Part shown: piece by piece, positions 1,741 to 25,742 of the stretch
Layout of the letters: each line of letters starts with the position of its first letter
Position numbering within the stretch: position 1 is the first letter of the stretch
Source of the DNA: a candidate division Zixibacteria bacterium SM23_73_3
Lineage (GTDB): Bacteria; Zixibacteria; MSB-5A5; SM1-73
NCBI GenBank assembly: GCA_001304155.1
Contig: LJUX01000013.1
Coordinates: 1-32,149, forward strand
DNA length: 32,149 nucleotides
Direction of reading: 5' to 3'
Translations under genes and position numbers: made by a program
Notes under the pieces: generated by a model
Told to the model about the DNA's origin: nothing
Database searches by the model: none
Seen by the model: the letters and a program-made list of their open reading frames with translations, nothing else

Positions 1741-1783
1741 GTAGCGGTCATCTGACCGCACAGAGGCATGAAGCCTCTGCTAC
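1741..1783. repeat. REPIN-like inverted pair A (GTAG ... CTAC)
   Basis: GTAG at 1741 is followed by the hairpin CGGTCA-TC-TGACCG, a two-base spacer, and a second hairpin CAGAGGC-ATGAA-GCCTCTG that ends in CTAC at 1783. Outer GC extends the flanks, so the whole element can fold as a three-way junction. The layout GTAG-palindrome / palindrome-CTAC is that of two REP units in inverted orientation (a REPIN). Confidence 0.75.
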
Positions 1784-1800
1784 GCATTCTTATATTATCT

Positions 1801-1891
1801 GTAGGTCGGATATGTCCCCAAATGGGGACTAACCGACAATCAATGGTCCTCGAATTTTGTCCGAAAGTCCTAAAGGACATTTCGGACCTAC
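1801..1891. repeat. REPIN-like inverted pair B (GTAG ... CTAC)
   Basis: GTAG at 1801 precedes an imperfect palindrome with arms GTCGGATATGTCCCC and GGGGACTAACCGAC. After ~20 bases a second palindrome follows (GTCCGAAAGTCC-TAAA-GGACATTTCGGAC) and ends in CTAC at 1888-1891. A near-identical copy of the first arm pair occurs at 25706. Confidence 0.75.
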
Positions 1892-1897
1892 TCTTAA

Positions 1898-1961
1898 CCT
1901 TTTTATGTTTCGGGGTGAGGGTTCATCCTGAAGGGATTCACCCTGAAGGGCACCCCGAAAC
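1898..1961 (+). repeat. Stem-loop repeat copy 2 (GTTTCGGGGTG type)
   Basis: Second copy of the 20-base direct repeat. GTTTCGGGGTG (1907-1917) pairs perfectly over 11 bp with CACCCCGAAAC (1951-1961). The 33-base loop contains CCTGAAGGG twice as a direct repeat. It lies just downstream of the mutase stop (minus strand), but neither side has the T-run of a classical terminator. Confidence 0.75.
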
Positions 1962-1982
1962 AACTGATCTTGACCCTTGACC

Positions 1983-3653
1983 CTAAATTAACGGTGGTTC
2001 TACATATTCCCCAAACACCTCCCGCAGAACGTCGCAGATCTCCCCTTCGGTGGTGTAACAACGCACACAATCTATTAAGGCGGGCATGGTGTTTTCCGTG
2101 CCTTCAGCGACTTTCTTTAAATTCTCCAATGACCTTTTCACTTTGTCATTATCCCTTTTTTCCCGAACTTTCTTAAGATTGTTCACCTGTTCTTTTTCTA
2201 CCTCCGGATCGATCTTTAGGATGGGAATCTCCACCTTCTCATCCTCTAAGACAAATTCATTTATGCCCACCACTATTCTTTCCTTATTTTCTATCTGTTT
2301 TTGATACCGATAAGCCGCCTCGGCGATCTCCCTTTGGAAGTAGCCCTCCTCGATGCATTTTAAAACCCCTCCCCGTCTTTCGATCTCATCGAAATATTTC
2401 TCCGCCTCCTGCTCCATCTTGTTGGTCAAAGACTCCACAAAGTAGGAACCTGCCAGAGGGTCGATGGTATTCGCCACTCCGGTCTCATGGGCGATTAACT
2501 GTTGGGTCCGCAAGGCGATGTGAACCGCCTTCTCCGAGGGAAGAGCGTAAGTCTCATCCATGGAGTTGGTGTGAAGGCTCTGGGTGCCCCCCAGAACACC
2601 GGCTAATGCTTCAAAAGCGGTGCGGATGATGTTGTTCTCCGGCTGTTGGGCGGTGAGACTGCATCCGGCAGTCTGGGTGTGAAATCTCAAAAGCCAGGAT
2701 TCTGGCTTTTTGGCTTTGTATTTCTCTCGCATGTGTCTTGCCCAGATGCGGCGAGCCGCCCGGTATTTGGCGATCTCTTCGAAGAAATCCAGATGGGAAT
2801 TGAAGAAATGCGAAAGCCGAGGAGCAAAATCGTCTACGTCCAATCCTGCCTTGATTGCTGCCTCCACATAGGCAAAACCATCTGCCAGGGTGAAGGCTAA
2901 CTCCTGCACCGCGGTGGAGCCCGCCTCTCTTATGTGATAGCCGGATATGGAGATGGTGTTCCACTTGGGCACATGCTGAGTGCAGAAGGCGATTAAGTCG
3001 GTGATCAATCTCATATGCGGTTCCGGTGGAAAGATCCATTCCTTCTGGGCGATGTATTCTTTTAGAATATCATTTTGCAGGGTTCCGGTAAGCTTCTCTG
3101 AAGGGACCCTCTGTTTTTCGCCCACGGCGATATACATGGCTAAGAGGATGGATGCCGGGGCATTGATGGTCATGGAGGTGGAGATCTTATCCAAACTGAT
3201 CCCATCAAAGATTATCTCCATATCCTGAAGTGAATCGACCGCCACCCCGCAGATTCCTACCTCCCCCACGGAGAGTGGTTGATCCGAATCCCATCCCATC
3301 AAGGTAGGCAGATCAAAAGCCACCGACAGACCGGTCTGACCTCTATTCAAAAGAAAGTGGTATCTTTGGTTGGTCTGGCGAGGGGTGCCCATGCCGGAAA
3401 ACTGCCGCATGGTCCACAGCCGTCCCCGATACATATTTGCCCTTACCCCCCTGGTGTATGGATATTCTCCGGGAAAGCCTATGTCCCGATTATAGTCTAC
3501 ACTCTCAGTATCCAGGGGTGTGTAAAGCTCCTTTACCGGTTCACCGGAGACGGTGATAAATTTTCTTTCTGCAGGAGATTTCGCTTGTTTTAACCCCTCC
3601 TCCCATTTCTTTTGGCGCTGAGCAATTTCATTCGATTTGGTTTGGTTAGACAT
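1983..3653 (-). CDS. icmA: B12-dependent acyl-CoA mutase large subunit, isobutyryl-CoA mutase-like
   Basis: 556 residues covering the substrate-binding TIM-barrel half of the methylmalonyl/isobutyryl-CoA mutase family, without the C-terminal cobalamin domain. Adenosylcobalamin-dependent enzymes of this family interconvert branched and linear acyl-CoAs. The start is ATG 3653 rather than the track's 3695, because AGAGGTGA lies 5 bases before it. Family motifs include [27 protein letters not shown] and [11 protein letters not shown] (His240, the B12-proximal His). Methylmalonyl-CoA mutase uses Tyr89 and Arg207 to hold the substrate carboxylate. Here the aligned residues are Phe85 (WTMRQF) and Gln203 (KEYIAQKEW), the pair described for isobutyryl-CoA mutase. 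The small B12-binding subunit must be encoded elsewhere. It follows meaB by 113 bases in the same direction. Family call is very sure; substrate call is inferred from two residues plus similarity of surrounding motifs. Confidence 0.9.
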
Positions 3654-3766
3654 AAAATCACCTCTTTTGTTTTCAAAAATCTGTCTGTAATTCAAGTAAA
3701 TTTTTTAAGAAATTTAAAAGTGGCATTGAAAAAGTCAAATCTTGCTTTTGGTCTTGAAAGGATTTA

Positions 3767-4717
3767 TCATGCTGAATTGCTTATGTTGATATCGTCTAAG
3801 ATCCTCTCTCCGGCTGAATATGGGTCACCCTCCCCTCGAAAAACTTTCTCTGCCATTTCATCTAAATTCAGAGAGGTGAGAATCTTTTCCCCGATAAGTT
3901 CTCTTATCTTAAGCTCGATGATCTTTTTTATATCTGATTTTATCTGGCTTTTTCTGTGTTTTTCAAAAATGTGGTTGTTTATTATGAATTCTTTATGCTC
4001 AGAGATATTGGATAGCAAAAGATCAATTCTCTTGTTATTCACCGCTTCGGTGGAGATTATGGGATATTCCCACTCTCCTTTTTTTCTGCGGACGTCTAAA
4101 ATCATGTCCAGCTCGGAGACGATCCTATTTGCCCCTTCTCTATCAGATTTATTGACCACGAAAATATCTGCAATCTCCATCAATCCGGCTTTCATGGCCT
4201 GGATGGAATCGCCCGATTCCGGCACCAGCACCACCACGGTGGTATCACAGGCATTGACCACGTCCAGCTCCACCTGTCCCACCCCCACGGTCTCGATCAG
4301 AATAAAATCTTTACCAAAAGCATCCATAACCAAAGCTACCTCCTTGGTGGTGGTGGCCAATCCTCCGTATGATCCTCTGGTGGCCATACTGCGGATGAAA
4401 ACTCCCTTTTGGCTGGTCAGATCCTGCATGCGGATGCGATCTCCCAAGAGGGCACCGCCGGTGAAGGGACTGGTGGGATCGACCGCAATTATTCCCACCC
4501 TTTGGTTATTTTTGACCAACAAAGAGGTAAGCTTGTCCACTATGGTGCTCTTCCCCACTCCTGGAGGGCCGGTAAATCCTACCCGATATGCCTTTCCAGC
4601 TTTAGGGTAAAGTTGAGACAAAATCCTCCTGTAATCGGGAGACTGATTCTCCACATAGGAGATTACCTTGGAGAGCGCCATCCTGTCGCCTTTGTGGAAT
4701 CTTTCAAGGATATTCAT
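3767..4717 (-). CDS. meaB: MeaB/ArgK-type GTPase, chaperone of a B12-dependent mutase
   Basis: 316 residues, the usual length of the MeaB (G3E P-loop GTPase) family. These proteins protect and reload cobalamin on methylmalonyl- or isobutyryl-CoA mutases in the cytosol. Visible motifs are Walker A GPPGVGKST, the base-binding NKSD, and the switch region ETVGVGQVELDV, together with the family stretch VDPTSPFTGGALLGDRIRM. It lies between recJ (57-base gap) and the mutase (113-base gap), all minus strand, so it is presumably co-transcribed with its client enzyme. No clear Shine-Dalgarno precedes ATG 4717; an internal ATG at codon 13 is less likely because the N-terminal helix is conserved in the family. 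The C-terminal third (RKKGEWEYPIISTEAVNNK...) is also typical. Confidence 0.95.
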   Translation of the reverse strand: MNILERFHKGDRMALSKVISYVENQSPDYRRILSQLYPKAGKAYRVGFTGPPGVGKSTIVDKLTSLLVKNNQRVGIIAVDPTSPFTGGALLGDRIRMQDLTSQKGVFIRSMATRGSYGGLATTTKEVALVMDAFGKDFILIETVGVGQVELDVVNACDTTVVVLVPESGDSIQAMKAGLMEIADIFVVNKSDREGANRIVSELDMILDVRRKKGEWEYPIISTEAVNNKRIDLLLSNISEHKEFIINNHIFEKHRKSQIKSDIKKIIELKIRELIGEKILTSLNLDEMAEKVFRGEGDPYSAGERILDDINISNSA

Positions 4718-4774
4718 GTAAGTTTCAAAAGGATTCTTCGTGGTTTACAACTTACTGTTTTCCTAAAAAAGAAC

Positions 4775-6490
4775 TTAGACTGTTTGCTCTGAGATTCTCA
4801 AGTCTTTTATCCTGAGCTGAATTTTATAGGTATCGTTCCAGAAGTTGGTCTCCACCACATACGCCAGATCAATGCGGATTCCCTTCATGGAGAGGAGTTT
4901 TGACATATCTCCCATCCCGAAACCTATGCAGTCAAAGACCGGACCTTCTTTTTTCACCCGCAAACGGAGATGATTGTTACCCACCACATGCGGTTCACCC
5001 CAGATATGCAAGTCTCGCGTCGAAAAGACCGGCCGCATATTCTGGGGACCAAAGGGTGCGAAAATGTCCAGCACACCGACCAGTTCCGGATTAATCTGTT
5101 CTAACTCCAACTCGGAATCGATTGACAGTCGAGGAATTAAATCATCTCTGGAAAGCTTCTTATCCGATACTTTTTTGAACTTCTCCCGGAAGGGATGGAT
5201 CTTCTCTGGCAAAATGGAAAGCCCAGCCGCATATTTATGACCACCGTATTGAACCAGATATTCTTCACATTCCCTTAAAGCCTCATACAGATGGAATCCG
5301 GGAATGCTTCGGGCAGAGCCCTTTCCTTCAGCCCCATCAATGGCGATCATGATGGTGGGGCGGTGGAACCTTTCCACCAGGCGAGAGGCAACAATTCCGA
5401 TAACCCCTTGATGCCAGCCAGAGGAAGCTAAAACTATGGCTTTGTCGGTAGCTAAATCCGCATCCTGTCCGATCAGATCGAGGGCTTCCTTTAGAGTGAT
5501 CTCGTCGATGTCTCTTCTACGTCGATTCTCATCGTCTAAAATCCGGGCCATCTCAGAAGCTTTAGACTCATCCCGGGTGGTAAGTAGTTTGATAGCCAGA
5601 TCGGCATCTCCCAATCTGCCTATTGCATTTATTCGGGGAGCCAAGATAAAGACCACCTGCCCGGTTCCAATCTTTTGACCTAATATTCCGGAGACGAATA
5701 TAAGAGACTTCAGACCGGGTTTGGTGGTTTTGGCTATCTGAGCCATTCCAAATTTAGTGAATATTCTATTCTCACCTACTAAAGGGACGATGTCGGCGGC
5801 GGTTCCCAAAGCCACCAGATCCAGGTGATCCTGCAGCTCACTCTCCTCCTGCCCCAATCTTCTGTAAATAGCTTGAGCAAATTTGAAAGCCACTCCTACT
5901 CCGGAGAGTTCACCTCCCGGGTAGCCTTCCTCTATGATCTTGGGATTTATGATGGCACAAGCATTGGGCAAAATCTCTTTGGGCTCGTGATGATCGGTAA
6001 TGATGGTGTCGATTCCTTTGCTTTTAGCAAAGGTAACCTCCTCCACTGCGGTGATTCCACAGTCGACTGAAATGATCAACCTCACTCCCCGCTTTTCCGA
6101 CTCCTGGATGCCTTCCTTTGATAGACCGTAGCCTTCATTCAAACGATTAGGCAGGTAATAGGTAACCTCTGCCCCTAACTTGTTCAATACCAGAAACAAA
6201 AGAGAGGTGGAGGTTATTCCGTCCACGTCATAATCGCCAAAGATCATGATCTTCTCCCTCTCCTTCAAGGCACGGATGACTCTTTCCACCCCTTTTTGCA
6301 TGCCCGACAGAAGAAATGGATCCAGAAGGTTATCCAGCGAAGGAGATAAGAACCCTTCGGCTTTGCTTATTGTATCCAGACCCCGGGTGACCAGAATTCT
6401 GGTGGCCACCTGAGGCAGAGAAAACTCTGATGACAGTTGGTTCACCGCACGCTGATCTGGCTCAGGTAGCAATTCCCATTTTAGCTTCAT
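4775..6490 (-). CDS. recJ: Single-stranded-DNA-specific 5'-3' exonuclease RecJ
   Basis: 571 residues, full family length. RecJ degrades single-stranded DNA 5' to 3' in recombination and mismatch or base-excision repair, using two metal ions. DHH-phosphoesterase motifs are visible in order: FGDYDVDG (~85-91), SVDCG (~141-145), TDHHEP (165-170), the helix with ALGTAADIVPL, and the DHHA1 motif QYGGHKYAAGLS near residue 425. The C-terminal ~110 residues form the OB-like domain. The start codon has AGGAAAGA upstream, lying inside the end of the preceding glycosyltransferase gene (14-base gap), which implies translational coupling. No missing catalytic residue was noticed. Confidence 0.97.
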   Translation of the reverse strand: MKLKWELLPEPDQRAVNQLSSEFSLPQVATRILVTRGLDTISKAEGFLSPSLDNLLDPFLLSGMQKGVERVIRALKEREKIMIFGDYDVDGITSTSLLFLVLNKLGAEVTYYLPNRLNEGYGLSKEGIQESEKRGVRLIISVDCGITAVEEVTFAKSKGIDTIITDHHEPKEILPNACAIINPKIIEEGYPGGELSGVGVAFKFAQAIYRRLGQEESELQDHLDLVALGTAADIVPLVGENRIFTKFGMAQIAKTTKPGLKSLIFVSGILGQKIGTGQVVFILAPRINAIGRLGDADLAIKLLTTRDESKASEMARILDDENRRRRDIDEITLKEALDLIGQDADLATDKAIVLASSGWHQGVIGIVASRLVERFHRPTIMIAIDGAEGKGSARSIPGFHLYEALRECEEYLVQYGGHKYAAGLSILPEKIHPFREKFKKVSDKKLSRDDLIPRLSIDSELELEQINPELVGVLDIFAPFGPQNMRPVFSTRDLHIWGEPHVVGNNHLRLRVKKEGPVFDCIGFGMGDMSKLLSMKGIRIDLAYVVETNFWNDTYKIQLRIKDLRISEQTV

Positions 6491-6504
6491 CTACATCTTT
6501 CCTA

Positions 6505-8244
6505 TCACTGAGACACAAACTTATATAGCACCGCCCCCAATCCAGACGGCGCTTTGTAAATGTTCACCAGCTCAAGCCTTAAGTCTTCTGGGACTTTTGA
6601 TCGATCATTTAGCGGCTCCAAAAGAAAGGACAGGTCGTCTCGCCATGAAGCTTCCTTTCCCAGACTTACAAGTAGATGGCTCACCTTGTTTTTTTCAGCG
6701 AACCAGACTATCCTTTCATATGGAACAAAGGGGACGGTAAAGACCGGCCGGTTGCAGTAGAAGAGGAATGAATCTCCGGAAAGAAACATCACCACTGCAT
6801 CCTGTGGCAGGATCTGATCTGCCCACAATCCTAACTTTTTGAACTCCTCTGATTCCAACTTCAAATTCCCAAAGATCTTTTGATGATTTTCCGCCATTTC
6901 GTTTGCCTTAACCAAGGAGAAAACCGACAGAATCGCTACGAATAAAAGAACCACGAAAGACCCGAGGGTAAAACTCTGAGCGGGTCTTGTACCTTTGGAA
7001 AGTTCAGCTACCGCCTTTCGAATATTTAAAATCCCTCCCACCGACAGCAAGATCAAAAGGGGAGAGTAAGGTTCAAGAAGTCGCCCAGCGGGGATGAAAA
7101 AAATGGGCATGGTGAGTAGGGGAGAGAATGCACATAAGAGGAAAACTCTTTTTTTCCATCCTTCTTTGTCCACCTTCCAGGAAAATATATAGAACAAAGA
7201 CAAAAAAAGAAAGGGTAAGAAGAAGAGATTTATCTTTTTTACACCATTCCAAGCGTTTCTGAAATAGTTGCTAAAAAAACCGGGAGAAGTAACAAAGCTT
7301 ATGATGTTCTCCTCGCCCAGAAGCACCTTTCCCTTGATTTCACCCTCCTCAGTCAATCCGCCCAGCACCTCAGCAAAAGCTTTTCTTTGCTGAAGATAGT
7401 TCAATCCCTTGGAGTAAGCTTTCTGCTTGAGAATATTATGAGCTGTTTTTCCACTCAAAATCCAGTGCCCGGTTTGGGAATGCATGAAATTGATGTAAGG
7501 GAAGGCCAAAATGAGAAAACTCACCAGAGAGATCAAAAGCATAACAAAAGAATGCGATTTTTTGCTGGTCCTATTTTTTATCTGAATTATCACAAACAAC
7601 AAAACTATAGCAACGAAAGCCACCAAAAACTCCGGACGGGTAAGATAACAAACTCCACCGAAGATTCCGAAGAGGGAGGCGTAAAGAAACGATCTTTTTG
7701 AGATGAAAAGCCATGCGCAAAAGAGGGTGGTCAAAAGAAAAAATGTATAGGTGGCTTCAGATAAAGGAACCCCCGAGATCACCACAAGGGCGGGAAAAAA
7801 GATCATTAAGACTGAACCCAAGTAAGCCGACTTATAATCGAAGACATTTCTTGCCAAAAAGAAAAAAGGCACCACCACCAGGCTTCCCAGAAATAAAGAG
7901 ACCGCAGAAGTGGCGGTTTCCAAAGTTCCCACCACAATTGAGAAAATGAATATCATAAACGGATATAACGGCGACCATACCACCGACCACCAGTGAAGGC
8001 CCTGTCCGTTTATGATACCCCAGGAGATCTTGGCATATATGGCCGCATCTCCAGTAAGCGGAGCTTCAAAATATTTGAGAAGAGAGAGTCGTATGAAAAA
8101 GGCGGTCAGAAATAAAATACCCAGAATGGTCAGGCTGACCCATCTTTTTTTGAGGAGATTGTCTACCTTTTGGGAGACTGAATCGACTTCGGTTTTTTTA
8201 TCCTTTTGAGAGTAGCTGGCCTTAGTTTTCTTTTTTTTCTTCAT
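6505..8244 (-). CDS. Polytopic membrane glycosyltransferase, GT39/PMT-ArnT-like
   Basis: About 579 residues. A very basic cytosolic tail (KKKKKTKASYSQKDKK) is followed by ~10-12 hydrophobic segments and a C-terminal soluble/periplasmic part from about residue 460. The first extracytoplasmic loop carries LTGDAAIYAKISWGIINGQG, in the position of the Asp-containing catalytic loop of GT-C enzymes of the Pmt/ArnT type, and is followed by WSPLYPF. Such enzymes move a sugar from a polyprenyl-phosphate carrier to lipid or protein at the outer face of the inner membrane. The acceptor cannot be told. The track starts at a TTG (8271); I prefer ATG 8244, though neither has a clear ribosome binding site. 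It is first in the run leading to recJ, meaB and the mutase, with no evident functional link. Confidence 0.8.
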   Translation of the reverse strand: MKKKKKTKASYSQKDKKTEVDSVSQKVDNLLKKRWVSLTILGILFLTAFFIRLSLLKYFEAPLTGDAAIYAKISWGIINGQGLHWWSVVWSPLYPFMIFIFSIVVGTLETATSAVSLFLGSLVVVPFFFLARNVFDYKSAYLGSVLMIFFPALVVISGVPLSEATYTFFLLTTLFCAWLFISKRSFLYASLFGIFGGVCYLTRPEFLVAFVAIVLLFVIIQIKNRTSKKSHSFVMLLISLVSFLILAFPYINFMHSQTGHWILSGKTAHNILKQKAYSKGLNYLQQRKAFAEVLGGLTEEGEIKGKVLLGEENIISFVTSPGFFSNYFRNAWNGVKKINLFFLPFLFLSLFYIFSWKVDKEGWKKRVFLLCAFSPLLTMPIFFIPAGRLLEPYSPLLILLSVGGILNIRKAVAELSKGTRPAQSFTLGSFVVLLFVAILSVFSLVKANEMAENHQKIFGNLKLESEEFKKLGLWADQILPQDAVVMFLSGDSFLFYCNRPVFTVPFVPYERIVWFAEKNKVSHLLVSLGKEASWRDDLSFLLEPLNDRSKVPEDLRLELVNIYKAPSGLGAVLYKFVSQ

Positions 8245-8307
8245 GGGCTGGACTTTGCGATCTTTTGCCAAGGACTACAGGTGATCTTTAAACCGAGTTT
8301 GCCGCGC

Positions 8308-8334
8308 GTAGCTGAGGCTTTATGCCTCAGTTAC
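8308..8334 (+). repeat. REP-like unit: GTAG + palindrome
   Basis: GTAG at 8308-8311 is followed by CTGAGGC-TTTAT-GCCTCAG (8312-8330) and then TTAC, a one-base variant of CTAC. It lies between rnpB and the membrane glycosyltransferase gene. Confidence 0.65.
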
Positions 8335-8462
8335 ACTAAAATACACTCTCTGCTCTCGAAAAGCAAAGAAATCTTTTTGACTTTTTTTAAGTATCTGTGG
8401 TCTCTGAATATCTAAAACCTGCAGGGGGAAGTTTTTAAACTTTTTGAAAGACTTCACTCGGC

Positions 8463-8481
8463 CGGGATAAATTCCCGCTCC
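8463..8481 (-). repeat. REP-like unit: GGAG + palindrome (degenerate)
   Basis: On the minus strand GGAG is followed by CGGGA-ATTTA-TCCCG. It has the same layout as the other GTAG/GGAG units but is short. Confidence 0.45.
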
Positions 8482-8602
8482 CACGCTTCCAACAACCCCA
8501 CTCATAGAGCAGGGCATTCGGCCTTGCTCCGTCTTTTCAGGTGTTCTGGGATTTGTCTTCTTTTTAACGCAGAGTTTTTTAACGGAGCCAATAAAAGAAA
8601 TT

Positions 8603-9037
8603 GCCAGAGCAGAAAATAAGCCGAGTTCTGTTCCCTTCGATCCCGCCGTCGGCGGGACTCGGGACGATGATCATCTATCTGGGTCCTTTGTTGCCAAAGG
8701 ACTCAAGCGACCTACCCGGAAGTTACCCTTTGCCTTCGGCTCAGGACGAATCCCTGGTCTTAAGGTTAGGGACGAGGCGGGCAACCTCTTTCTTCCTTAC
8801 TTGGTCTTGCTCTCAGGTGGGGTTTGCCCGGACCCGTGTTACCACGGGTACGGGTGGTCTCTTACACCACCTTTTCACCCTTAGCCAAATGGCCGGTCTG
8901 TTTTCTGTGGCACTTTCCGTCCCTTCAGGATTAACCCTGACGGGCCCACGCGTTACGTGGCACCTTGCCCTGGAGAGCTCGGACTTTCCTCCTCCCCCGC
9001 CAAAGGTGGGGGAAGCGATCATCTATTCTGCTCTGGC
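8603..9037 (-). ncRNA. rnpB: RNase P RNA, bacterial type A
   Basis: The catalytic RNA that removes 5' leaders from tRNA precursors. On the minus strand the ends pair as helix P1: GCCAGAGCAGAA at the 5' end and TTCTGCTCTGGC at the 3' end. Conserved blocks are present in order: GAGGAAAGTCCGAGCTC near the 5' end, CCACAGAAA, GGGTGAAAAGGTGG, AAGAGACCACC, and finally ACAGAACTCGGCTTAT before P1. Length is ~435 nt, towards the long end for the type. A strong GC hairpin (tcccgcc/ggcggga) lies in the 3' part. The three ORF-track entries here (8601..9077 +, 8813..9022 - and neighbours) are artefacts of the RNA sequence. Confidence 0.95.
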
Positions 9038-9083
9038 AACTCTAACTCACCTTTGCATAACCTCTCTTTTAAACTGAAGCCAA

Positions 9084-9111
9084 CCAATAAAGATACGCTT
9101 TTTTCTGTCAA
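9084..9111 (-). promoter_or_regulatory. Possible rnpB promoter
   Basis: TTGACA (9106-9111, minus) is separated by 16 bases from TATTGG (9084-9089), a weak -10. Transcription would start about 40 bases before the mature 5' end, requiring a short processed leader. The -35 is convincing, the -10 is not. Confidence 0.35.
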
Positions 9112-9216
9112 AACGAGAGTTTGATCTTCGTAACCTCAAGTACTCTGCTCGTTCGTCACCGAATCATCCTGGATGGACAAGATGTCTTTTATCAACAATG
9201 TTCGCTAGCTGGCACT

Positions 9217-9948
9217 TCAAAAGCCTTCCTTCTCGATAATGGCAACGCACCATGATTGTTCCGAACCGAAAAAACGTTTGACTCGCCAGCCAGTGCCGTC
9301 CAAAATGTTCTGCATCTCATTTTCTGACACCAACAGGTAATCAAACCAGGGGGTCGCATATTTTTTGTACCTAACCCGCAGCCTTACTTGCCCGGACATT
9401 CTGCCCCTCTTTCTGTTGAATTTGTGATATTCAAAATGGGCAGGTTCATCAGTTTTGTATGGGTCCATGCTCTCTGCTATAATCCTCGCCCTCTGGGGGG
9501 TGATTTTGTGGAATCTTTTCAGCAGTCGCTTTGCGCTGTTGAAACTCCCGAATAGTCCAAAGTTGTTGCCCAACATGAGCAGAGTGTCAAATTTTCCTAT
9601 TCGTGAACTAACCTGGGTAATAGATACCAACTTTGCTTTTTTGAGACCCCTAAGTTTACAGACTTTTATTGCCAGAGGGGATACATCTATTCCTAAAACA
9701 TCAAATCCCCTTTTCTGAAGATAGAGACAGTGCCTTCCAGCCCCACAGCCTATATCCAATACCTTGCCTCTCACATATCGCATCGCCTTCTTTTCGTGCG
9801 GCGGCCAATCCTTAAATTTGGAAAAATATACCTTGGGCGCATTTGTAGGAGTAATGAAGCCATCATCTCTTTCTGCAATTTCAAAGCCGCCCTTACCTTT
9901 AAGGTAGTCGTACATTGCGTAACCGTGTGCGTCCTGGTAATCTTTCAT
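9217..9948 (-). CDS. Class I SAM-dependent methyltransferase, substrate unknown
   Basis: 243 residues from ATG 9948 (the track's 9981 start is a TTG; GGAAGAG lies before the ATG). The SAM-binding Rossmann core is clear: VLDIGCGAGRHCLYLQKRG (motif I) followed by GIDVSPLAIKVCK (motif II) with the acidic Asp at the end of strand 2, and DTLLMLGNNFGLFG in the position of motif IV. The N-terminal ~60 residues (GYAMYDYLKGKGG) and the basic C-terminal part (RGRMSGQVRLRVRYKKYATPWF) probably form the substrate cap. The fold resembles small-molecule methyltransferases of the Methyltransf_11/25 groups. It stands alone between rnpB and a repeat cluster, so context gives no substrate. Confidence 0.85.
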   Translation of the reverse strand: MKDYQDAHGYAMYDYLKGKGGFEIAERDDGFITPTNAPKVYFSKFKDWPPHEKKAMRYVRGKVLDIGCGAGRHCLYLQKRGFDVLGIDVSPLAIKVCKLRGLKKAKLVSITQVSSRIGKFDTLLMLGNNFGLFGSFNSAKRLLKRFHKITPQRARIIAESMDPYKTDEPAHFEYHKFNRKRGRMSGQVRLRVRYKKYATPWFDYLLVSENEMQNILDGTGWRVKRFFGSEQSWCVAIIEKEGF

Positions 9949-10035
9949 GAGTTCATCTCTTCCAGAGCTTGACAATTTCAAGTGATTTGCTTATCTCCGA
10001 ATGGGGCGGGCATCTGTGAGCGACCAAGGAGACCT

Positions 10036-10088
10036 GTAGTTGCTCAATTCATTGAGCTTTCTTTTGGCTCGATAAATCGAGCCACTAC
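10036..10088. repeat. REPIN-like inverted pair C (GTAG ... CTAC)
   Basis: GTAG at 10036-10039 precedes GCTCAAT-TC-ATTGAGC. A short spacer follows, then GGCTCGAT-AA-ATCGAGCC and CTAC at 10085-10088. The two palindromes differ in sequence but share the GTAG boundary and inverted orientation. Confidence 0.75.
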
Positions 10089-10183
10089 AAATCCCATATA
10101 TTTTTGATGCATCGGCATTAGTAAATACCGATGTTTTTAGCTTCGGTAATTCTTCATGATAAATCGGCGAAAATCATAAACAT

Positions 10184-10895: not shown

Positions 10896-10918
10896 GGCGA
10901 TTCATGAATCGCCCCTAC
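10896..10918 (-). repeat. REP-like unit: GTAG + palindrome
   Basis: Minus strand: GTAGGG followed by the perfect palindrome GGCGATTCATGAATCGCC. It sits immediately downstream of the guaB stop codon. Confidence 0.7.
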
Positions 10919-10922
10919 AGGG

Positions 10923-13366: not shown

Positions 13367-13443
13367 TGGTGGGCAATACTGGATTCGAACCAGTGACCTT
13401 TCGGATGTGAACCGAACGCTCTAACCAACTGAGCTAATCGCCC
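13367..13443 (-). tRNA. tRNA-Val (anticodon CAC), CCA encoded
   Basis: The cloverleaf is complete. Acceptor GGGCGAT/ATTGCCC has one G-U pair. The D arm is GCTC-AGTTGGTTA-GAGC, the anticodon stem TTCGG/CCGAA with loop TTCACAT, and the T arm ACTGG-TTCGAAT-CCAGT, followed by A73 and an encoded CCA. Anticodon CAC reads the valine codon GUG. The gene has its own promoter and terminator. Confidence 0.96.
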
Positions 13444-17445: not shown

Positions 17446-17471
17446 TCTTGGAGTTTTGAATGGTGATCAAA

Positions 17472-17513
17472 CCCATCTGGGGGCGATAACGCCTCCAGAT
17501 GGGTTCTTATTAT
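17472..17513 (+). terminator. Terminator after the first barrel gene
   Basis: CCCATCTGG-rich arm (17472) pairs with CCAGATGGG ending at 17503 around an inner GGCG/CGCC stem, followed by TTCTTATTAT. The stem is long; the T-run is only moderate. Confidence 0.75.
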
Positions 17514-17718
17514 CAATAAGAGAGCTGCATCCAGCGGAGAAATACAGGACAGGACGGTAATGGACTTCTTTGTAGTTGACCTTTCACATGTAGAAGTGAA
17601 CACACAATTTCTTTCTTGATCGGGCACGGTTGAACCCCTGCCCGAACCAAGAGCTGACAACTTAGCTAATTGTAAAAATTCTTTATTTTGACAATTTTTG
17701 TAAAGAAAGGAGTGTGAC

Positions 17719-18333: not shown

Positions 18334-18361
18334 TTTGCATCTTGTGCAAGCTTTTTAAAGG

Positions 18362-18403
18362 GTGTCAGGTCCGCAGGATCCATAGGAACTAAGGTCCTGA
18401 CAC
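18362..18403. repeat. GTGTCAGG palindrome
   Basis: GTGTCAGG (18362-18369) and CCTGACAC (18396-18403) form an 8-bp perfect inverted pair around a 26-base loop containing GGATCC. It does not carry GTAG/GGAG and is followed by no T-run, so it looks like a dispersed palindrome of a different type. Confidence 0.55.
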
Positions 18404-18406
18404 AAC

Positions 18407-18439
18407 ATAAAAAGAGCCGTCGCCTTTTTTAAGGCGACG
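18407..18439. terminator. Bidirectional terminator between convergent genes
   Basis: CGTCGCCTT-TTTT-AAGGCGACG, a 9-bp perfect stem at 18418-18439. On the minus strand it is followed by GCTCTTTTTATG, so it terminates the TPR lipoprotein transcript. On the plus strand the T tract is only in the loop, and termination of the barrel gene is less certain. Confidence 0.75.
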
Positions 18440-18480
18440 CTTATGTTTATCTTCTCTCTTTGAGAGGGCGGCAAAAAACT

Positions 18481-19941: not shown

Positions 19942-20028
19942 CTTGCCTCCCAAAAAGAGTAAAAATTATTTTTTCCAAGGCGTGTTTTTTTAATCATCTA
20001 TTAGGCAGAGCCCTTTACGCCAAAACGG

Positions 20029-20068
20029 ACGGCTACCATTCGGTAGCCGCCCCGCCTTTGGCGGGGCG
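20029..20068. repeat. Tandem GC-rich hairpins with GTAG
   Basis: GGCTACC-ATTC-GGTAGCC is directly followed by GCCCCGCC-TTT-GGCGGGGC (20049-20067). The second hairpin is preceded by GTAG (20043-20046) like the other REP-like units. On the plus strand TTTTTCTT follows, but no plus-strand gene ends here. It may help end the DUF4139 transcript on the minus strand. Confidence 0.55.
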
Positions 20069-20078
20069 CAGCTTTTTC

Positions 20079-21485
20079 TTATCTGTAATATCTCACTGTA
20101 TAATTCAGCACCACCTCTTGATCTTTGTCTAATTGAATCTTAAACTCAATGGTGCTGGCGTCCTTCTTCTCATAGGAATGAGTGGACTCTCTTATCTCCC
20201 ACTCGGTGTAGGAATAAAGATGCTCCACCACTACAACCTCAACCGCTTCCTCCTTATGATTTCTCAGTTTGATCTGATATGATTCTTCGGTGATATCCTC
20301 TCTGATCGTTTTGAAATCGGTTTTTTGTCTTTCCCCTACAATATCAAATGCGTTCCCCAAAAAGACCCTTACCTTCTCGTTTTTGGGGGTATGATCGATC
20401 TTATCCTCTCCTACGAATTCCAAGGCTTTGTCCACGTCCTCTTTATACACCCGGATTTTCCCCTGCGGCAGCGGCATACCCAAACCCGCGCTTTCAGCAT
20501 TCTCAAACTCCAGCTCCACCCTGACCTTCTTTTCATCCCTGGCTCCGTCGTAGGTAAATATCTTCTTAACCGTTACCTCGGTGGATGGGAAAAGCGACAC
20601 CTGCTTTATCTCATTATCTTTGATAGTAGCTGGACGCAGAAGGGTATAGAGATGATATTCGAAAAACGCCTTTTCCTCGAACTGGGGCGCTCCAGCAGCC
20701 ATGTCTGCTATGTATCCTTTTGCTAAGCGGGGCGGAACTCTTTCCTCTCTTACCCGATGCACCTCCCCGGCGATCAGCTTCACCTTGGCCTCCTCGTAAG
20801 TGGCGCCGGAACGGTTGTCGATGGACACCCAGCCAGCCAGCTCCAGGTTCTCATCCCGTTGGTCCACCACCGCCACGTATTCGGCATGCCAGTTTATTCC
20901 ACCGGTTAAATAACTCACCTCTGCCTTTCTCTTTCCGCTCACCTGGCTATCCAAAAGCCACACCAAGGTGGGCTTGGTGATCAGACCCTCCGGCAGGGTG
21001 GGAAAATAAAGATCTCTCACCTCATCCAGTCTTACTATGCGAATAGCTCCATCCGGCTCCTGGAGGGTTACATTTTCGTTGGAATAAGACAGAAGCTGAC
21101 CCTTATATGATTTACCCTCCTCCTTGGGTCCTGCGGATTTGGCGAAAAGCTCGATCTCTTTGTCCACATATTTTTGCAATATCTTGGTAGAACTTACCAG
21201 ATCATATTGATAGTTCTGCTCCAGTATGCTCACCCGATCGGAAGCGTTAACCGGCTTGAAATGAACCGAGGTTGGATCTATCCGTGCGGCCACGTCGGTG
21301 AATTTAATTAAGCTTTTTCCTTTTTGAAATTCCAGTTCCCGCACGTCTTTGATAAGCCCTAAATCCTGGTTGTAAATGGTAACCGAAACCTTCCCATAAG
21401 CTGGCGAAGGTTTTCCTAAAAACCAACTGCCTAGGACAAAGACAAAACTTAAAACCACCAACCTGAAAAAAACTGAGTTTTTCAT
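20079..21485 (-). CDS. Exported DUF4139 domain protein
   Basis: 468 residues from ATG 21485 (AAGGTGG upstream; a GTG at 21497 is the track's start). Signal peptide FFRLVVLSFVFVLGSWFLGK...AYG. The mature part begins VTIYNQDLGLIKDVREL and continues with SYLTGGINWHAEYVAVVDQ and LAGWVSIDNRSGATYEEAKVKLIAGEV, the recognisable core of DUF4139. The C-terminus (SYQIKLRNHKEEAVEVVVVEHLY ... VVLNYTVRYYR) is all beta. The family is periplasmic or surface-exposed in many bacteria, and its biochemical function is not established. It may be co-transcribed with the TPR lipoprotein 137 bases downstream. Confidence 0.85.
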   Translation of the reverse strand: MKNSVFFRLVVLSFVFVLGSWFLGKPSPAYGKVSVTIYNQDLGLIKDVRELEFQKGKSLIKFTDVAARIDPTSVHFKPVNASDRVSILEQNYQYDLVSSTKILQKYVDKEIELFAKSAGPKEEGKSYKGQLLSYSNENVTLQEPDGAIRIVRLDEVRDLYFPTLPEGLITKPTLVWLLDSQVSGKRKAEVSYLTGGINWHAEYVAVVDQRDENLELAGWVSIDNRSGATYEEAKVKLIAGEVHRVREERVPPRLAKGYIADMAAGAPQFEEKAFFEYHLYTLLRPATIKDNEIKQVSLFPSTEVTVKKIFTYDGARDEKKVRVELEFENAESAGLGMPLPQGKIRVYKEDVDKALEFVGEDKIDHTPKNEKVRVFLGNAFDIVGERQKTDFKTIREDITEESYQIKLRNHKEEAVEVVVVEHLYSYTEWEIRESTHSYEKKDASTIEFKIQLDKDQEVVLNYTVRYYR

Positions 21486-21992
21486 TTCACTCACCACCTT
21501 AGGAAATTAAATGTTTTTTTGTGTTTCTGTAATCTTATACAAACCGGAAATGATTTTATTCCCATACTGTAATTTTTTGAAAGGCTGCCTTTTTGGTCTG
21601 AAATCATTTCTCATTATTTATGATTTTGAACCAAAAACCTAAAGAGAGTAGCAGATTCTTTATGTGGACATCAACATTCATAAGCACTGTTTCTCGGTAG
21701 CGGTCATAGACTAAAGAGACGATTTGGCTGTTCACCATCTGGTCAGTCACCGCTATCGTGAATAGCCGATAGGATATTTTAATCAATCTCCTTTAAAAAC
21801 GCAAGTGGTAATGAACGCTTGTTGTGGATGGAGATAGTTGGCCGATTCACCCGGAGGATCGGGTTGGATGAAGCCAGTCCCTACAGGTAGGGGGCGGATT
21901 TATCCGACCCGCCATAATGAGAATAGGCAAATCTAAGCCCGATAAATCGGGCAACTACAATCTAAGCAAACATTCATGTTTACCTCGAAAGT
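21486..21992. other. Gene-free region with degenerate palindromes
   Basis: About 500 bases between nadD and the DUF4139 gene. It holds one REPIN-like pair (21887-21958) and a degenerate inverted repeat around 21695-21775 (GTAGCGGT ... ACCGCTAT; GGCTGTTCAC ... GTGAATAGCC). The 60-codon minus ORF at 21604-21786 reads through these repeats and has no family resemblance. Confidence 0.65.
21887..21958. repeat. REPIN-like inverted pair D (GTAG ... CTAC)
   Basis: GTAG at 21887-21890 precedes GGGCGGAT-TT-ATCCGACCC. After ~25 bases GCCCGAT-AA-ATCGGGC follows with CTAC at 21955-21958. Confidence 0.75.
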
Positions 21993-22586
21993 TTATTTCC
22001 GATATAACTTTTTCTCTCTTATGTATTCTTCAACTTTGTCGGGAACTAAATATTTGATGGTTCGTCCTTTTTTTACCCGTTCCCTTATTTGGCTGGAGGA
22101 GATGTCCATCCCGGTTATCCTGACAATTGTGCTTTTTTTCGCAAAATGATTTTTTGAATCAAATTCGTCAAAGCCCGGTCTGGTGGCGATTACAAACTTT
22201 GTTAATCCAAAGATCTTTTCCGGATCCTTCCAGGTGCATATCTCGTTCAGCACATCTGATCCGGTTAAAAAATAAATCTCTGAATCTGGGAATAGAATTT
22301 TCAACTGCCTCAACGTATCGATGGTATATGATACTCCTTTTCTTTTCAGTTCAGTGTCTGAGACTGAGAAGAAGGGGTTGTCCTTTAGGGCAAGCTTGGT
22401 CATACAGTATCTATCTTTGGCTGGGGAGAGCTTTCGCCGGGTCTTGTGAGGGGGGCTAAAGCAGGGAATGAAGATCACCTGATCTAATCCAAGCTTTTCC
22501 TTCACCTGCTCCGCCAGCACCAGATGTCCCAGATGAATGGGATCGAATGTCCCCCCTAAAATACCGATCTTTTTTGGCCGAACCAT
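21993..22586 (-). CDS. nadD: Nicotinate-nucleotide adenylyltransferase
   Basis: 197 residues, full length. It transfers AMP from ATP to nicotinate mononucleotide in NAD synthesis. The nucleotidyltransferase signature GILGGTFDPIHLGHLVLAE (HxGH) is at the N-terminus, SYTIDTLRQLK and YFLTGSDVLNEICTWKDP follow in the middle, and the C-terminal ISSSQIRERVKKGRTIKYLVPDKVEEYI (SxxxR-type ATP motif) completes it. It is the last gene of the long minus-strand cluster, 95 bases after the bamD-like gene, with a REP-like palindrome in that gap. The usual partner rsfS is not in the window. Confidence 0.97.
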   Translation of the reverse strand: MVRPKKIGILGGTFDPIHLGHLVLAEQVKEKLGLDQVIFIPCFSPPHKTRRKLSPAKDRYCMTKLALKDNPFFSVSDTELKRKGVSYTIDTLRQLKILFPDSEIYFLTGSDVLNEICTWKDPEKIFGLTKFVIATRPGFDEFDSKNHFAKKSTIVRITGMDISSSQIRERVKKGRTIKYLVPDKVEEYIREKKLYRK

Positions 22587-22634
22587 CTCAAATTTTTCTC
22601 TTTAGGAAAAGACTTTCTTCTTTGTTATGATTTG

Positions 22635-22659
22635 GGCGATGACAGAGCATCGCCTCTAC
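22635..22659 (-). repeat. REP-like unit: GTAG + palindrome
   Basis: Minus strand: GTAG, one base, then GGCGATG-CTCTGT-CATCGCC. It sits between the bamD-like gene and nadD, inside a probable transcript. Confidence 0.65.
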
Positions 22660-22681
22660 ATTCTTTTTTACCTCACCGCAT

Positions 22682-23464
22682 TTATCTTTCCTCGACGTCC
22701 TTCTTTTCTTCTATTCTTTTTAACCTTTTCTTTGCCTTCTTGGCTGACTTATCTTCGGGGAAATCTTGCAAGAATTTTTCGTATTCCACTTTGGCTTGAT
22801 CGTATTTTTTCCGCTTGTAAAAAACCTCCGCAATCTGGAACTGGGCCGGACCTACCCACTCGGTGTCGTGGTAATCATTCAAGACTTGCCTCAAATACAT
22901 CAAAGCGGAAGCATGATGTCCCATCCGATAGTAGAGATATCCGGCTTGGTAAGCCTTCTTGGCCAGCTTGGCTCTGCACTTAGTTAACAGTTCCCCAGCT
23001 TCTTCTCTCCGGTCGCTTTCCGGATAGTCATCTAAGAAGTTTCTCAGCTCATCTGTTGCCCTCCGGGTATGCTTTGGATCCAATTCTGCTTTAGGCGACA
23101 TCTTAAAGTCACTTTGGGCTATCATAAAGGCGGCATCATCGGCAAGCTGGCTGGTGGGATAGGAGGAGAGAAGTTTATTAAATTCTCCGATGGCTAAAGG
23201 ATATTCCTTTTGATTGAAATATGTCATTCCCAGAAGATACTGAGCGGAATCGATGAAGACCGCTCCCGGATAGTTGAAAATGAGTTTTCGAAGCTCCACC
23301 ACTGCCTCATCCCAGTGCTTTTCATCAAATTCCCTTTTAGCCACGGCATATTGATCTTCAGCATCCAGTACGACTTTAGGGGCTTTGGGGCCACAACCAA
23401 ATCCAAGCAGGAAAAACAATAAAACTATGTTGAGAAAAACGAAAAGCTTTGATTTTTTCTTCAT
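22682..23464 (-). CDS. bamD: BamD/YfiO-like outer-membrane assembly lipoprotein
   Basis: 260 residues from ATG 23464. It has a lipoprotein-type signal ending LLGFGCGPKA (Cys24; an imperfect lipobox). TPR-like helical pairs then match BamD: YAVAKREFDEKHWDEAVVEL, AQYLLGMTYFNQKEYPLAIGEF, the BamD-typical SYPTSQLADDAAFMIAQSDF with a following proline- and charge-rich linker, and a C-terminal YYRMGHHASALMYLRQVLNDY. BamD helps BamA fold barrel proteins into the outer membrane from the periplasmic face. The terminal part is lysine/glutamate rich. It is 25 bases after the unrecognised envelope gene and in the same direction. A general tetratricopeptide lipoprotein is the main alternative. Confidence 0.87.
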   Translation of the reverse strand: MKKKSKLFVFLNIVLLFFLLGFGCGPKAPKVVLDAEDQYAVAKREFDEKHWDEAVVELRKLIFNYPGAVFIDSAQYLLGMTYFNQKEYPLAIGEFNKLLSSYPTSQLADDAAFMIAQSDFKMSPKAELDPKHTRRATDELRNFLDDYPESDRREEAGELLTKCRAKLAKKAYQAGYLYYRMGHHASALMYLRQVLNDYHDTEWVGPAQFQIAEVFYKRKKYDQAKVEYEKFLQDFPEDKSAKKAKKRLKRIEEKKDVEER

Positions 23465-23489
23465 GTCTCCACTCAAGAAAAGTTAATTT

Positions 23490-24200
23490 TCATCGGTTGG
23501 CAAAGAAAAGATAAATCAATCCTCCCACCACTGCCACCACCAAAGCCGGTTCAAGAAATCTGCTGTGTGGATCGTCCGGAAGAGATGGACTCAAAAAGGG
23601 ATAGGATGGATTGTTCACCGATTTTATCATACTCTTTTTTACCCAATCCGATCTTTCCTCCTTCCCTCTTTTGGTCCACAGCACCTTTCCGGTGACGTTA
23701 TCCTTTAGCCGAAACGACAAATTGAGCCAAGTTTTTCTGGTTACTAATCTGGCACCCAAAAAACCCTTTCTTTTGATTTGAGGATAATTCAGGCTCATCT
23801 CCATGATACGATAAAATAATGACTGAGATTCCGACAAATCATCGTTCGGTGCAGTTGGGTGCAGGGCCACCTGATAATTAGAAGACAGAAGATAAAAGAC
23901 AAGTTCATCTTCCAAAAGCCAATTAGCTGGATGTTCTCCCTCCGCTTTCAAAAGGAGCAACTTCGAATTAGCTGGAGGAAAATCATCGAAGGTGCGCCCC
24001 AGAACGGATCTTATGGACTCTCGCAAAAACTCCTCGTTGGAGGAAGGATTTTCCGGGGTTGCATTTTTGTTCTGGGCAAATCCGGCAAGCGGGATGAACG
24101 TTGTCGCGAAAACAACAAGCCAGGCCAGAATAACCTTTTTTAAAACCAGACGTATTTTAATTCCAATAGCAAAAAGTTTTTTAGCCTTTGGAACGATCAT
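23490..24200 (-). CDS. Unrecognised exported protein with C-terminal membrane anchor
   Basis: 236 residues; I do not recognise the family. The start overlaps the end of the transglycosylase gene by 20 bases, so translation is coupled. An N-terminal signal (LKKVILAWLVVFATTFIPLAGFA) would place residues ~43-210 in the periplasm. That part (ANWLLEDELVFYLLSSNYQVA, SLFYRIMEMSLNYPQIKRKG, RLVTRKTWLNLSFRLKDNVTGKVLWTK) looks like an alpha/beta domain of the type that senses or assembles surface components. The last ~22 residues FLEPALVVAVVGGLIYLFFANR form a single membrane helix. Between a lytic transglycosylase and a BamD-like gene, an envelope-assembly role is likely but unproven. Confidence 0.75.
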   Translation of the reverse strand: MIVPKAKKLFAIGIKIRLVLKKVILAWLVVFATTFIPLAGFAQNKNATPENPSSNEEFLRESIRSVLGRTFDDFPPANSKLLLLKAEGEHPANWLLEDELVFYLLSSNYQVALHPTAPNDDLSESQSLFYRIMEMSLNYPQIKRKGFLGARLVTRKTWLNLSFRLKDNVTGKVLWTKRGKEERSDWVKKSMIKSVNNPSYPFLSPSLPDDPHSRFLEPALVVAVVGGLIYLFFANR

Positions 24201-24846
24201 ATTTCTCTTCCAGTTCCTTATACTTTTTTAGCACTCTGCGGAGAAAATAGGTGGGGGGGTTCTGCCCCTCTTTCAGATGAAGTTTCAAAGCATTTTCTCC
24301 CAGGTTATATGCAATTATTGCCTTTTTCACATCCTTGAATTTAAGGATTAACTCGAAAAGATAAAGGGTCCCCAGTTGAATGTTAAAGGCTGGTTCAAAA
24401 AGAGATAGTTCCCCCTTCCAGTGCAGTCCCCTTCTCTGAGACAGCGCATGTCCCACCGAGGGCTTAACCTGCATCAACCCCAAAGCTCCCATCTCCGAGA
24501 TCTGTCCCTTACGGAAGGAACTTTCGGTTAAGATCAAAGCTAAAATCAAAAGAGGATCATAACCATATTTTTTGCTCTCATCATAAACAACTTGAGTTAG
24601 CTGTGCCACCTCCTGATCCTTGAAACCCACCTGAAACTCCTCGATGATGTCCAATATCTTTAGCTTTTCCTCTAATTCATTTATCTTAAGTTGTTGCTCT
24701 CTTAAGATGCCCTGGAGTTCAAATCTGTCTTGAACCAGATAGATAATCAGTGCGAACTGGCCAATGTAAAGCAGAACCAGAAGCGCGCTTATGAATTTGG
24801 AGACCAAGATACCGCTCTTTCTGATAAATTTTACTCCAAGTGCCAT
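24181..24846 (-). CDS. Membrane-anchored lytic transglycosylase (SLT family)
   Basis: 221 residues. A single membrane helix lies at ~15-38 (ISALLVLLYIGQFALIIYLV), followed by a coiled coil (EQQLKINELEEKLKIL). The lysozyme-like SLT domain has the catalytic Glu in LALILTESSFRKG, GALGLMQVKPSVG, and AYNLGENAL in the third motif. The enzyme cleaves peptidoglycan between MurNAc and GlcNAc with anhydro-ring formation. The N-terminal anchor and coiled coil point to tethering in a periplasmic complex; neighbours are envelope genes. It overlaps the downstream gene by 20 bases. ATG 24846 is followed by a basic stretch, as expected for an inner-membrane anchor. Confidence 0.92.
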   Translation of the reverse strand: MALGVKFIRKSGILVSKFISALLVLLYIGQFALIIYLVQDRFELQGILREQQLKINELEEKLKILDIIEEFQVGFKDQEVAQLTQVVYDESKKYGYDPLLILALILTESSFRKGQISEMGALGLMQVKPSVGHALSQRRGLHWKGELSLFEPAFNIQLGTLYLFELILKFKDVKKAIIAYNLGENALKLHLKEGQNPPTYFLRRVLKKYKELEEKYDRSKG

Positions 24847-24871
24847 ACCAACTCCTTTTTTTCACCTCTTA

Positions 24872-25684
24872 TCAAAACAAAACCTCTGCTTCGAAAGAAA
24901 ACTCAGATAGGGCTGAAGCTAAGTTGCTCTTTAGCCATTCTGAATACCTCTTTTCATGGTCTATCACGCCTTCATAGAAGCGCAAAGCCTGAGGAGACCT
25001 TCCTTCCAAAAGCGTGCTGATCTTCTTCCGCTTCCCTTTAATATAATTCATTTTGTCCAGATATACCTTCTTTATTTTCATCTTCTGCAATCTTTCAAAA
25101 AGTAACCTGATGGAGTTCATATTGTCGGAAAAGAAGGGCAGAATTGGCCCAAAAAATACAAAAGTGGGGATACCGTTCTCCTTCAGCTTTATCAATGCCT
25201 CAAACCGCCTCTCCAGAGTCGAAGCGCATGGTTCAAACATCTTCTGCACATTTGAATCAGGGCAGGTGATGGTGAAACCAACTTCTTTATCTTTTATCTT
25301 CTTCAGGACGTCTAAGTCTCTCAAGATCAGATCGGATTTGGTCTGGATAGAGACCGAAAAATCAAAGTTTGTCAGGATTTCAAGACATTTACGGGTTAGT
25401 TGATATTTTTCCTCCAGAGGTTGATAGGCATCTGTCACCGTGCTGACCATCACCACACCCGGCTTGGTTTTCCTAATCTGTTCCCGAAGACGATCGATTA
25501 TGTTTATCTTCACATCTACGAATTCGCCCCATTCCTCTTTGTGATTTGTATATTTTTTCATAAACTCAGCATAACAGTATACGCAGCCATGCTGACAACC
25601 AGTGTAAGGATTGAGGGCATAATCCACCCCCTCAATTCTTGATTTGACCAGCGCGTTTTTGCATTTTCCTTTTGTTATCTTCAA
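24872..25684 (-). CDS. Radical SAM protein of the SPL (spore photoproduct lyase-like) family
   Basis: 270 residues. I take the start at TTG 25684 with CAGGAG four bases before it, instead of the track's 25726, which lies inside a repeat. The iron-sulfur motif is in NPYTGCQHGCVYCYAEF (CxxxCxxC), followed by VVMVSTVTDAYQPLEEKYQLTRKCLEIL, FSVSIQTKSDLILRDLDVL and FGPILPFFSDN, matching Rv2578c-like SPL-type proteins rather than true spore photoproduct lyase of Bacillus. Their substrate is not known. It sits between a methyltransferase and the transglycosylase gene (25-base gap). Confidence 0.85.
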   Translation of the reverse strand: MKITKGKCKNALVKSRIEGVDYALNPYTGCQHGCVYCYAEFMKKYTNHKEEWGEFVDVKINIIDRLREQIRKTKPGVVMVSTVTDAYQPLEEKYQLTRKCLEILTNFDFSVSIQTKSDLILRDLDVLKKIKDKEVGFTITCPDSNVQKMFEPCASTLERRFEALIKLKENGIPTFVFFGPILPFFSDNMNSIRLLFERLQKMKIKKVYLDKMNYIKGKRKKISTLLEGRSPQALRFYEGVIDHEKRYSEWLKSNLASALSEFSFEAEVLF

Positions 25685-25705
25685 TTGACTCCTGCTTGCA
25701 CTTTT

Positions 25706-25742
25706 GGAGGTCGGATATGTCCCCAAATGAGGACTATCCGAC
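25706..25742 (+). repeat. REP-like unit: GGAG + palindrome (copy of the 1801 arm)
   Basis: GGAG then GTCGGATATGTCCCCAAAT, identical to the arm at 1805-1823, then a right arm with two changes, one of which restores pairing with GTCGGATA. Only this copy uses GGAG instead of GTAG. It lies just upstream of the SPL gene start. Confidence 0.7.

Follow-up and report, generated by a model that had tools for sequence, protein, structure and literature searches.

Results

Features of the window

The window, that is, the whole stretch of 32,149 nucleotides analyzed here, is contig C30 of a Zixibacteria genome bin of 1.88 Mb in 90 contigs (82% complete), and it holds the RNase P RNA, a tRNA, and a series of palindromes (Table 1). 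The methylmalonyl-CoA mutase encoded in the window shares 91% identity with that of a "Candidatus Zixiibacteriota" MAG and 60 to 66% with the best copies from the other phyla tried, which makes a Zixibacterium the most likely host. The original prediction had read ten loci as one design, namely, a GTAG or GGAG tetranucleotide next to a palindrome. Palindromes were present at all ten; nine loci bore tagged palindromes of the REP type, the GTAG itself was found at eight, and the exception, 8463, fits a separate, ATAG-tagged class described below. At 1741, 1801, 8308, 10036, 20043, and 21887, the tag lies 5′ of the hairpin on the plus strand, directly or a few bases off, as had been proposed, but the units at 10896 and 22635 are oriented the other way, with minus-strand GTAG tags at 10918 and 22659, respectively. 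All four inverted pairs that had been named (1741-1783, 1801-1891, 10036-10088, and 21887-21958) are present in the sequence. The idea of GGAG as a second constant tag did not hold up, since this word occurred before hairpins at background level; the GGAG at 25706 is evidently a point variant of the 1801 unit, and that at 8463 belongs to the other class.

The hairpin at 8463 looks like a degenerate copy of the ATAG class (tip ATTYA) carrying GGAG, and its assignment as a GTAG REP was rejected. Its placement within the RNase P RNA was also rejected, because Rfam puts that gene elsewhere (Table 1). Sequence related to this hairpin is found at the matching site of the same-genus genome G001, and part of it in the congener G002.

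Other window units recur as well. The asymmetric two-hairpin plan of 1741-1783 is also seen around the RAYT gene of contig C73 and at further places in the genome (L040, L032, and L029), sites resembling the 1801 unit occur in L029 and in G001, and 16 places in the genome sample resemble the 10896 palindrome. On either side of the pairs between 1741 and 1891, at 1660-1715 and 1889-1965, stand copies of a repeat without GTAG, TTTTTATGTTTCGGGGTG(A/T)G..., of which many partial copies exist in the window genome and in its relatives G001 to G004. Its GGGGTGAG stretch fits GGGGWSAS, the TIR motif known from the literature, and a RAYT-like gene of G001 (L061) has related repeats on its flanks.

Toward the right end, a palindrome without a GTAG tag, CAGCCCCTAACTTAAGTTAGGGGCTG at 31868-31898, has 17 places in the sampled genome plus G001, G003, and G004, and one reading we offer is a further repeat family or a terminator type. 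The contig end itself (32048-32149) is a repeat with matches of about 80% in relatives that ends in an AAGGAGG-ATG start; perhaps a mobile gene begins here and interrupted the assembly.

Table 1. Repeat units and RNA genes of the window, with sites of the ATAG class elsewhere in the genome
Feature	Position	Strand	Structure or source
Composite cluster	1660..1965		Two REPINs between two copies of non-GTAG repeat TTTTTATGTTTCGGGGTG(T/A)G..; repeat family D1
REPIN, C73 RAYT class	1741..1783	+ and -	+ GCGTAG-GCGGTCA(TC)TGACCGC; - GCGTAG-CAGAGGC(TTCAT)GCCTCTG; from sequence
REP unit, 1801 family, bulged stem	1801..1837	+	GTAG-GTCGGATATGTCCCC...GGGGACTAACCGAC
Inward-facing partner of 1801	1851..1891	-	GTAG-GTCCGAAATGTCC...GGACTTTCGGAC; 85% match in L029
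Single REP, C73 class	8308..8330	+	GCGTAG-CTGAGGC(TTTAT)GCCTCAG
Degenerate hairpin, ATAG-class tip	8463..8481	-	GGAG-CGGGA(ATTTA)TCCCG
RNase P RNA, class A	8602-9034	-	Rfam, 262 bits
REPIN, C22 RAYT class	10036..10088	+ and -	+ GTAG-TTGCTCAAT(TC)ATTGAGC; - GTAG-TGGCTCGAT(TT)ATCGAGCCA
TC(AT)GA-class palindrome, near-symmetric "double foot" type	10896..10918	-	GTAG-GGGCGATTC(AT)GAATCGCCTCT
tRNA	13370-13443	-	
REP-like hairpin	20043..20069	+	GTAGC-CGCCCCGCC(TTT)GGCGGGGCG; stem recurs elsewhere in genome
Inward-facing pair, AT(TY)AT tip on both	21887..21958	+ and -	+ GTAG-GGGGCGGAT(TT)ATCCGACCC; - GTAG-TTGCCCGAT(TT)ATCGGGC
Probably a degenerate REP	22635..22659	-	GTAGA-GGCGATG(CTCTGT)CATCGCC; similar places in L017, L038
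Copy of 1801 unit, tag GGAG	25706..25742	+	92% identity to 1800-1837; repeat family D6
ATAG/ATTYA class sites	Contigs C1, C3, C6, C21, C36, C39, C44, C57, C58, C80; L074:1501-1800		

Enrichment and polarity of the GTAG tag

We counted tagged hairpins in the window and in a genome sample of 664 kb (40 stretches plus the window, about 35% of the genome), with hairpin scores and class labels following our own rules. The window held 11 hairpins preceded by GTAG, compared with a mean of 0.2 and a maximum of 2 in 200 dinucleotide shuffles, and the controls CTAC (0), GGAG (1), and GATG (1) stayed at background. One of the 11, at 30309, lies in a coding ORF and is probably due to chance; the units at 1801 and 25706, with their bulged stems, were missed by this simple score, and thus the window count is not inflated. 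When all 256 tetranucleotides were ranked by enrichment 5′ of hairpins whose stems had 7 bp or more, GTAG came first in the 664 kb, with 82 occurrences versus 13.1 expected (58 versus 6.6 without stem overlap). CTAC preceded hairpins only 11 times in the same sample, which indicated that the GTAG tag has polarity. The fraction of occurrences preceding a hairpin was 96/2502 for GTAG, compared with 34/7571 for GGAG and 28/7099 for GATG, and GGAG was not enriched 5′ of hairpins in either the window shuffles or the genome sample. Thus, the frequency of GTAG before palindromes, for which a chance test had been suggested, is far above expectation both in the window and in the 664 kb. The units are dispersed and mostly lie outside genes, with 105 found in the 664 kb and 7 weak matches in 427 kb of long ORFs, and close neighbors face inward in 12 of 14 cases.

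RAYT genes and the hairpins beside them

As predicted, no RAYT gene lies in the window. Genes for Y1-type transposases, on whose existence the REP reading had been made to depend, do occur in the genome, and all three RAYT copies are on other contigs, two of them intact (C22 and C73) and one a remnant (C58). The C73 protein (160 amino acids) scored 116 bits against NF047646 (cutoff, 80), and the C22 protein (146 amino acids) scored 68.6 bits, under that cutoff but over the one for Y1_Tnp; the C58 gene is a C-terminal remnant from which the HUH half is gone. The nearest solved structure to both intact proteins is that of Escherichia coli TnpA-REP (4ER8). Their HUH motif (HCH/HVH) and catalytic tyrosine [Y(I)..NP] are present, and their tag-contact segment, LWQ..(F/Y)Y(D/E)HVIRN, aligns with IWQPRFWEHAIRN of 4ER8. 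They therewith possess equivalents of W94, Q95, and R104, the residues with which the E. coli enzyme contacts the tag and which have been described as conserved in GTAG-REP enzymes (PMC6006769).

Each of the three RAYT genes is flanked by hairpins of a single class. Those beside the C22 gene, e.g., GTAG-TTGCCCGAT(TC)ATCGGGCAA and GTAGTT-GCCCAAT(TT)ATTGGGC, share their class with the window units 10036-10088 and 21958, and those beside the C73 gene, e.g., GCGTAG-GCACCCG(TA)CGGGTGC and GCGTAG-CCAAGGC(TTCAT)GCCTTGG, share theirs with 1741-1783 and 8308. The search for Y1 genes flanked by the window's stems, which had been proposed, thus returned both intact genes, at the level of hairpin class. 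The C58 remnant is flanked by ATAG-tagged hairpins with the tip ATTYA, a class to which the window match is weak. In G004, a genome of the same family, the closest relative of the C73 RAYT has the flank GCGTAG-CCGAGCC(TTCAC)GGCTCGG, in which tag and tip are the same and the stem is different.

No cognate RAYT for the 1801/25706, 20043, and 22635 units was found in the bin, which is 82% complete, and the RAYT loci of G001 and G002, checked as candidates for the 1801 family, lack such flanks. Hairpins of the CT(TY)AG type flank RAYTs in relatives (L059, L047, and L070), and no intact RAYT so flanked was found in the incomplete bin of the window genome.

Stem variation and hairpin tips

Units of the C22 class were gathered by tag and tip only, with the stem left free; because the search pattern itself sets tag and tip, the stem is the only feature of this covariation set that gives an independent result. 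In register, the outer stem pairs were Watson-Crick in 84% of cases in the window genome and in 88% at the loci of the C22 RAYT clade, compared with 20 to 34% when the pairing was slid by 1 or 2 bases, and two or three pair types occurred at most stem positions. These data indicated that the stem is conserved as a structure rather than as a sequence.

For an independent test of the tip, the hairpins flanking 80 RAYTs were scanned freely. Tip class requires 11 changes on the tree of these RAYTs, compared with at least 22 (mean, 27) in 300 label shuffles, and without the largest class, AT(TY)AT, it requires 10 versus at least 12 (mean, 17.7) with shuffled labels. In the clade of the C22 RAYT (24 rows; SH-aLRT, 98), AT(TY)AT was the main tip in every one of the 21 members for which REPs were detectable. 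Going by the titles of their records, these 21 loci represent about eleven phyla (Zixibacteria, Planctomycetes, Chloroflexota, WOR-3/Stahlbacteria, Poribacteria, Proteobacteria, Omnitrophica, Nitrospirae, CPR groups, Actinomycetota, and Clostridia), the records being mostly genome bins whose single phylum assignments may be wrong. The tips YCY, CT(TY)AG, and five-base loops each appear in more than one RAYT branch, and the tip is therefore not a unique key. By tip, the 105 units comprise AT(TY)AT (23), CT(TY)AG (20), TC(AT)GA (18), TTYAY (11), (YCY) (8), and others (25), the TC(AT)GA class including many symmetric "double foot" palindromes, in which one site is counted on both strands.

The stems thus vary because several families are present and because, in each family, the tag and tip stay fixed and the stem letters drift. 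Coexisting subfamilies, one of the two sources of variation originally offered, agree with the three RAYT lineages and several tip classes of the genome; relaxed recognition, the other, applies to the stem letters, which are free, but not to the tag and tip, which any one family keeps strictly and which track the phylogeny of the RAYTs.

An ATAG-tagged class

In the genome sample, 9 or 10 of the 12 hairpins with the ATTYA tip have ATAG no more than 1 base from the stem, with a chance expectation for ATAG at that place of about 2%. The strict ATAG/ATTYA pattern matched 9 sites in the whole window genome, 10 in G001, 5 in G004, and 1 in G005; the remaining 16 relatives had no match, and the reversed-pattern control found none. 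The main texts of PMC3733652 and PMC6006769 do not name ATAG among the tag variants. We regard the ATAG-tagged family as a lead and make no claim of novelty for it.

Turnover in related genomes

The GTAG units of the window are absent at the matching sites of G001, G002, and G004 (68 to 83% DNA identity), and some of the matching gaps hold other tagged hairpins, e.g., GTAG-CCGCAGGCTTCAGCCTGCG beside the mutase gene of G004. Exact empty sites were not found in G001 to G004, where the flanks are too diverged, and movement is therefore inferred; judged by these alignments, the turnover of sites among relatives would fit mobility. Separately, G002 lacks about 1 kb at 9119-10166, a segment comprising the REPIN of 10036-10088 and an ORF (9217-9981) similar to methyltransferases; in G002, the flanks of this segment lie about 20 bases apart.

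Discussion

We consider it very probable that the window units belong to several coexisting REP/REPIN families that are nonautonomous substrates of RAYTs encoded elsewhere. The REP/REPIN reading put forward originally is borne out by the enrichment of the tag, by its polarity, and by RAYT genes flanked by the window's own REP classes. Each RAYT would most likely read a single-stranded hairpin through its 5′ GTAG tag and its tip. The stem would need to pair, with its letters largely free, so that paired changes would let the stems of one family drift, and the families would differ in their stems, while the tag and layout persist. By analogy with published enzymes, the tag would guide the RAYT to cut at CT/CA, and inward-facing pairs would be the form in which the RAYTs mostly move the units.

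A single REP family of relaxed recognition, whose one transposase takes any GTAG followed by a hairpin, would account for the tag and geometry common to all units, but it is improbable, given that the genome has three RAYT lineages, each flanked by one class, and that tip class tracks the RAYT tree. We give even less credit to the view that the hairpins are mainly transcription terminators or mRNA-stabilizing elements beside which GTAG is incidental. The units do lie between genes, in several cases downstream of a gene, and such roles have been acquired by REPs elsewhere (PMC3733652); however, neither a one-sided tag ranking first of 256 words nor head-to-head pairing and RAYT association would be expected of such elements, and neither the 8308 nor the 8463 hairpin was called by a terminator scan of 8200-8700. 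The hairpins may have a terminator or mRNA-stabilizing role secondarily. A chance meeting of a common tetranucleotide with palindromes might explain single weak items, such as 30309 in its coding ORF, but as an account of the set it is scarcely credible in view of the window count relative to shuffles and the hairpin-preceding fraction of GTAG relative to GATG.

Beyond the coexistence of RAYT-dependent families, a more speculative proposal, which we think possible and rather doubtful, is that the eleven-phylum RAYT lineage reads only the tag and the AT(TY)AT tip, with the stem free, and that a sister lineage in the same genome has also shifted its guide from GTAG to ATAG. If true, REP stems could diversify without loss of mobility, and nature would offer a guide-change series. 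The 21 RAYT loci from about eleven phyla reveal what portion of the hairpin remains constant along with its enzyme, and a single genome with three RAYT lineages and both GTAG and ATAG tags would make a convenient test set for tag and tip specificity.

Comparison with known REP systems

The GTAG-tagged REP superfamily comprises 24 families (Di Nocera et al. 2013, PMC3733652), and coexisting families, complementary stem changes, RAYT-specific families, and head-to-head dimers were all described there. The units analyzed here share with it the 5′ GTAG, stems of 6 to 13 bp with short loops, the presence of several families in one genome, subfamilies showing complementary changes in the stem, head-to-head dimers, and repeat-specific REPtrons. 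They differ in the host phylum, which is absent from that survey as presented in its main text, and in the ATAG family, where the main text has changes at the second or third tag position and GTGG. The variable stems, which had been considered odd, therefore match published GTAG families (PMC3733652 and PMC6006769) as well as the group 3 TnpA-REP enzymes. For the latter, from Stenotrophomonas maltophilia and Marinomonas, the tag, a loop base, and stem pairing are needed and most stem letters have a modest effect (Corneloup et al. 2021, PMC8266576), which by analogy may provide a ready mechanism for variable stems; the loop bases differ, however.

As in REPtrons with TnpA-REP of subclass 2.4 (Quentin et al. 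2018, PMC6006769), each transposase has a REP family of its own, "double foot" REPs occur, and cognate REPs lie in frame inside the transposase genes of relatives; in contrast to that subclass, the two intact RAYTs of the window genome are without an internal REP. Among 51 related RAYT genes, 13 (including L080, L082, L084, L085, L087, L088, L100, L104, and L109) bear, within the coding core, GTAG hairpins that are mostly cognate, often 24 to 26 codons before HUH (peptide VVAQFIEH or VVAELALL) and at a rate far above that in long ORFs of the window genome. REPs inside RAYT genes were rejected as a novelty, since they have been published for subclass 2.4 (PMC6006769).

Like REPINs (Bertels and Rainey 2011, PMC3116915), the window pairs consist of two inverted REP units with the RAYT elsewhere, but here there are tens of copies per family, not hundreds, and the stems of the two halves are often unlike each other. 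The bracketing repeat without GTAG (1660-1715 and 1889-1965) resembles TIRtrons in containing GGGGTGAG/GGGGTGTG, as TIRtrons and their TIRYT carry GGGGWSAS repeats (PMC3733652). The literature thus already has families that coexist, REPs specific to their RAYT, stems that change, "double foot" REPs, and REPs in RAYT genes, and the additions made here are modest: the occurrence in Zixibacteria, the ATAG family beside a RAYT remnant, and the GGGGTGAG repeat in the 1660-1965 cluster. They extend REPtron biology to Zixibacteria and leave the general picture of REPs unchanged.
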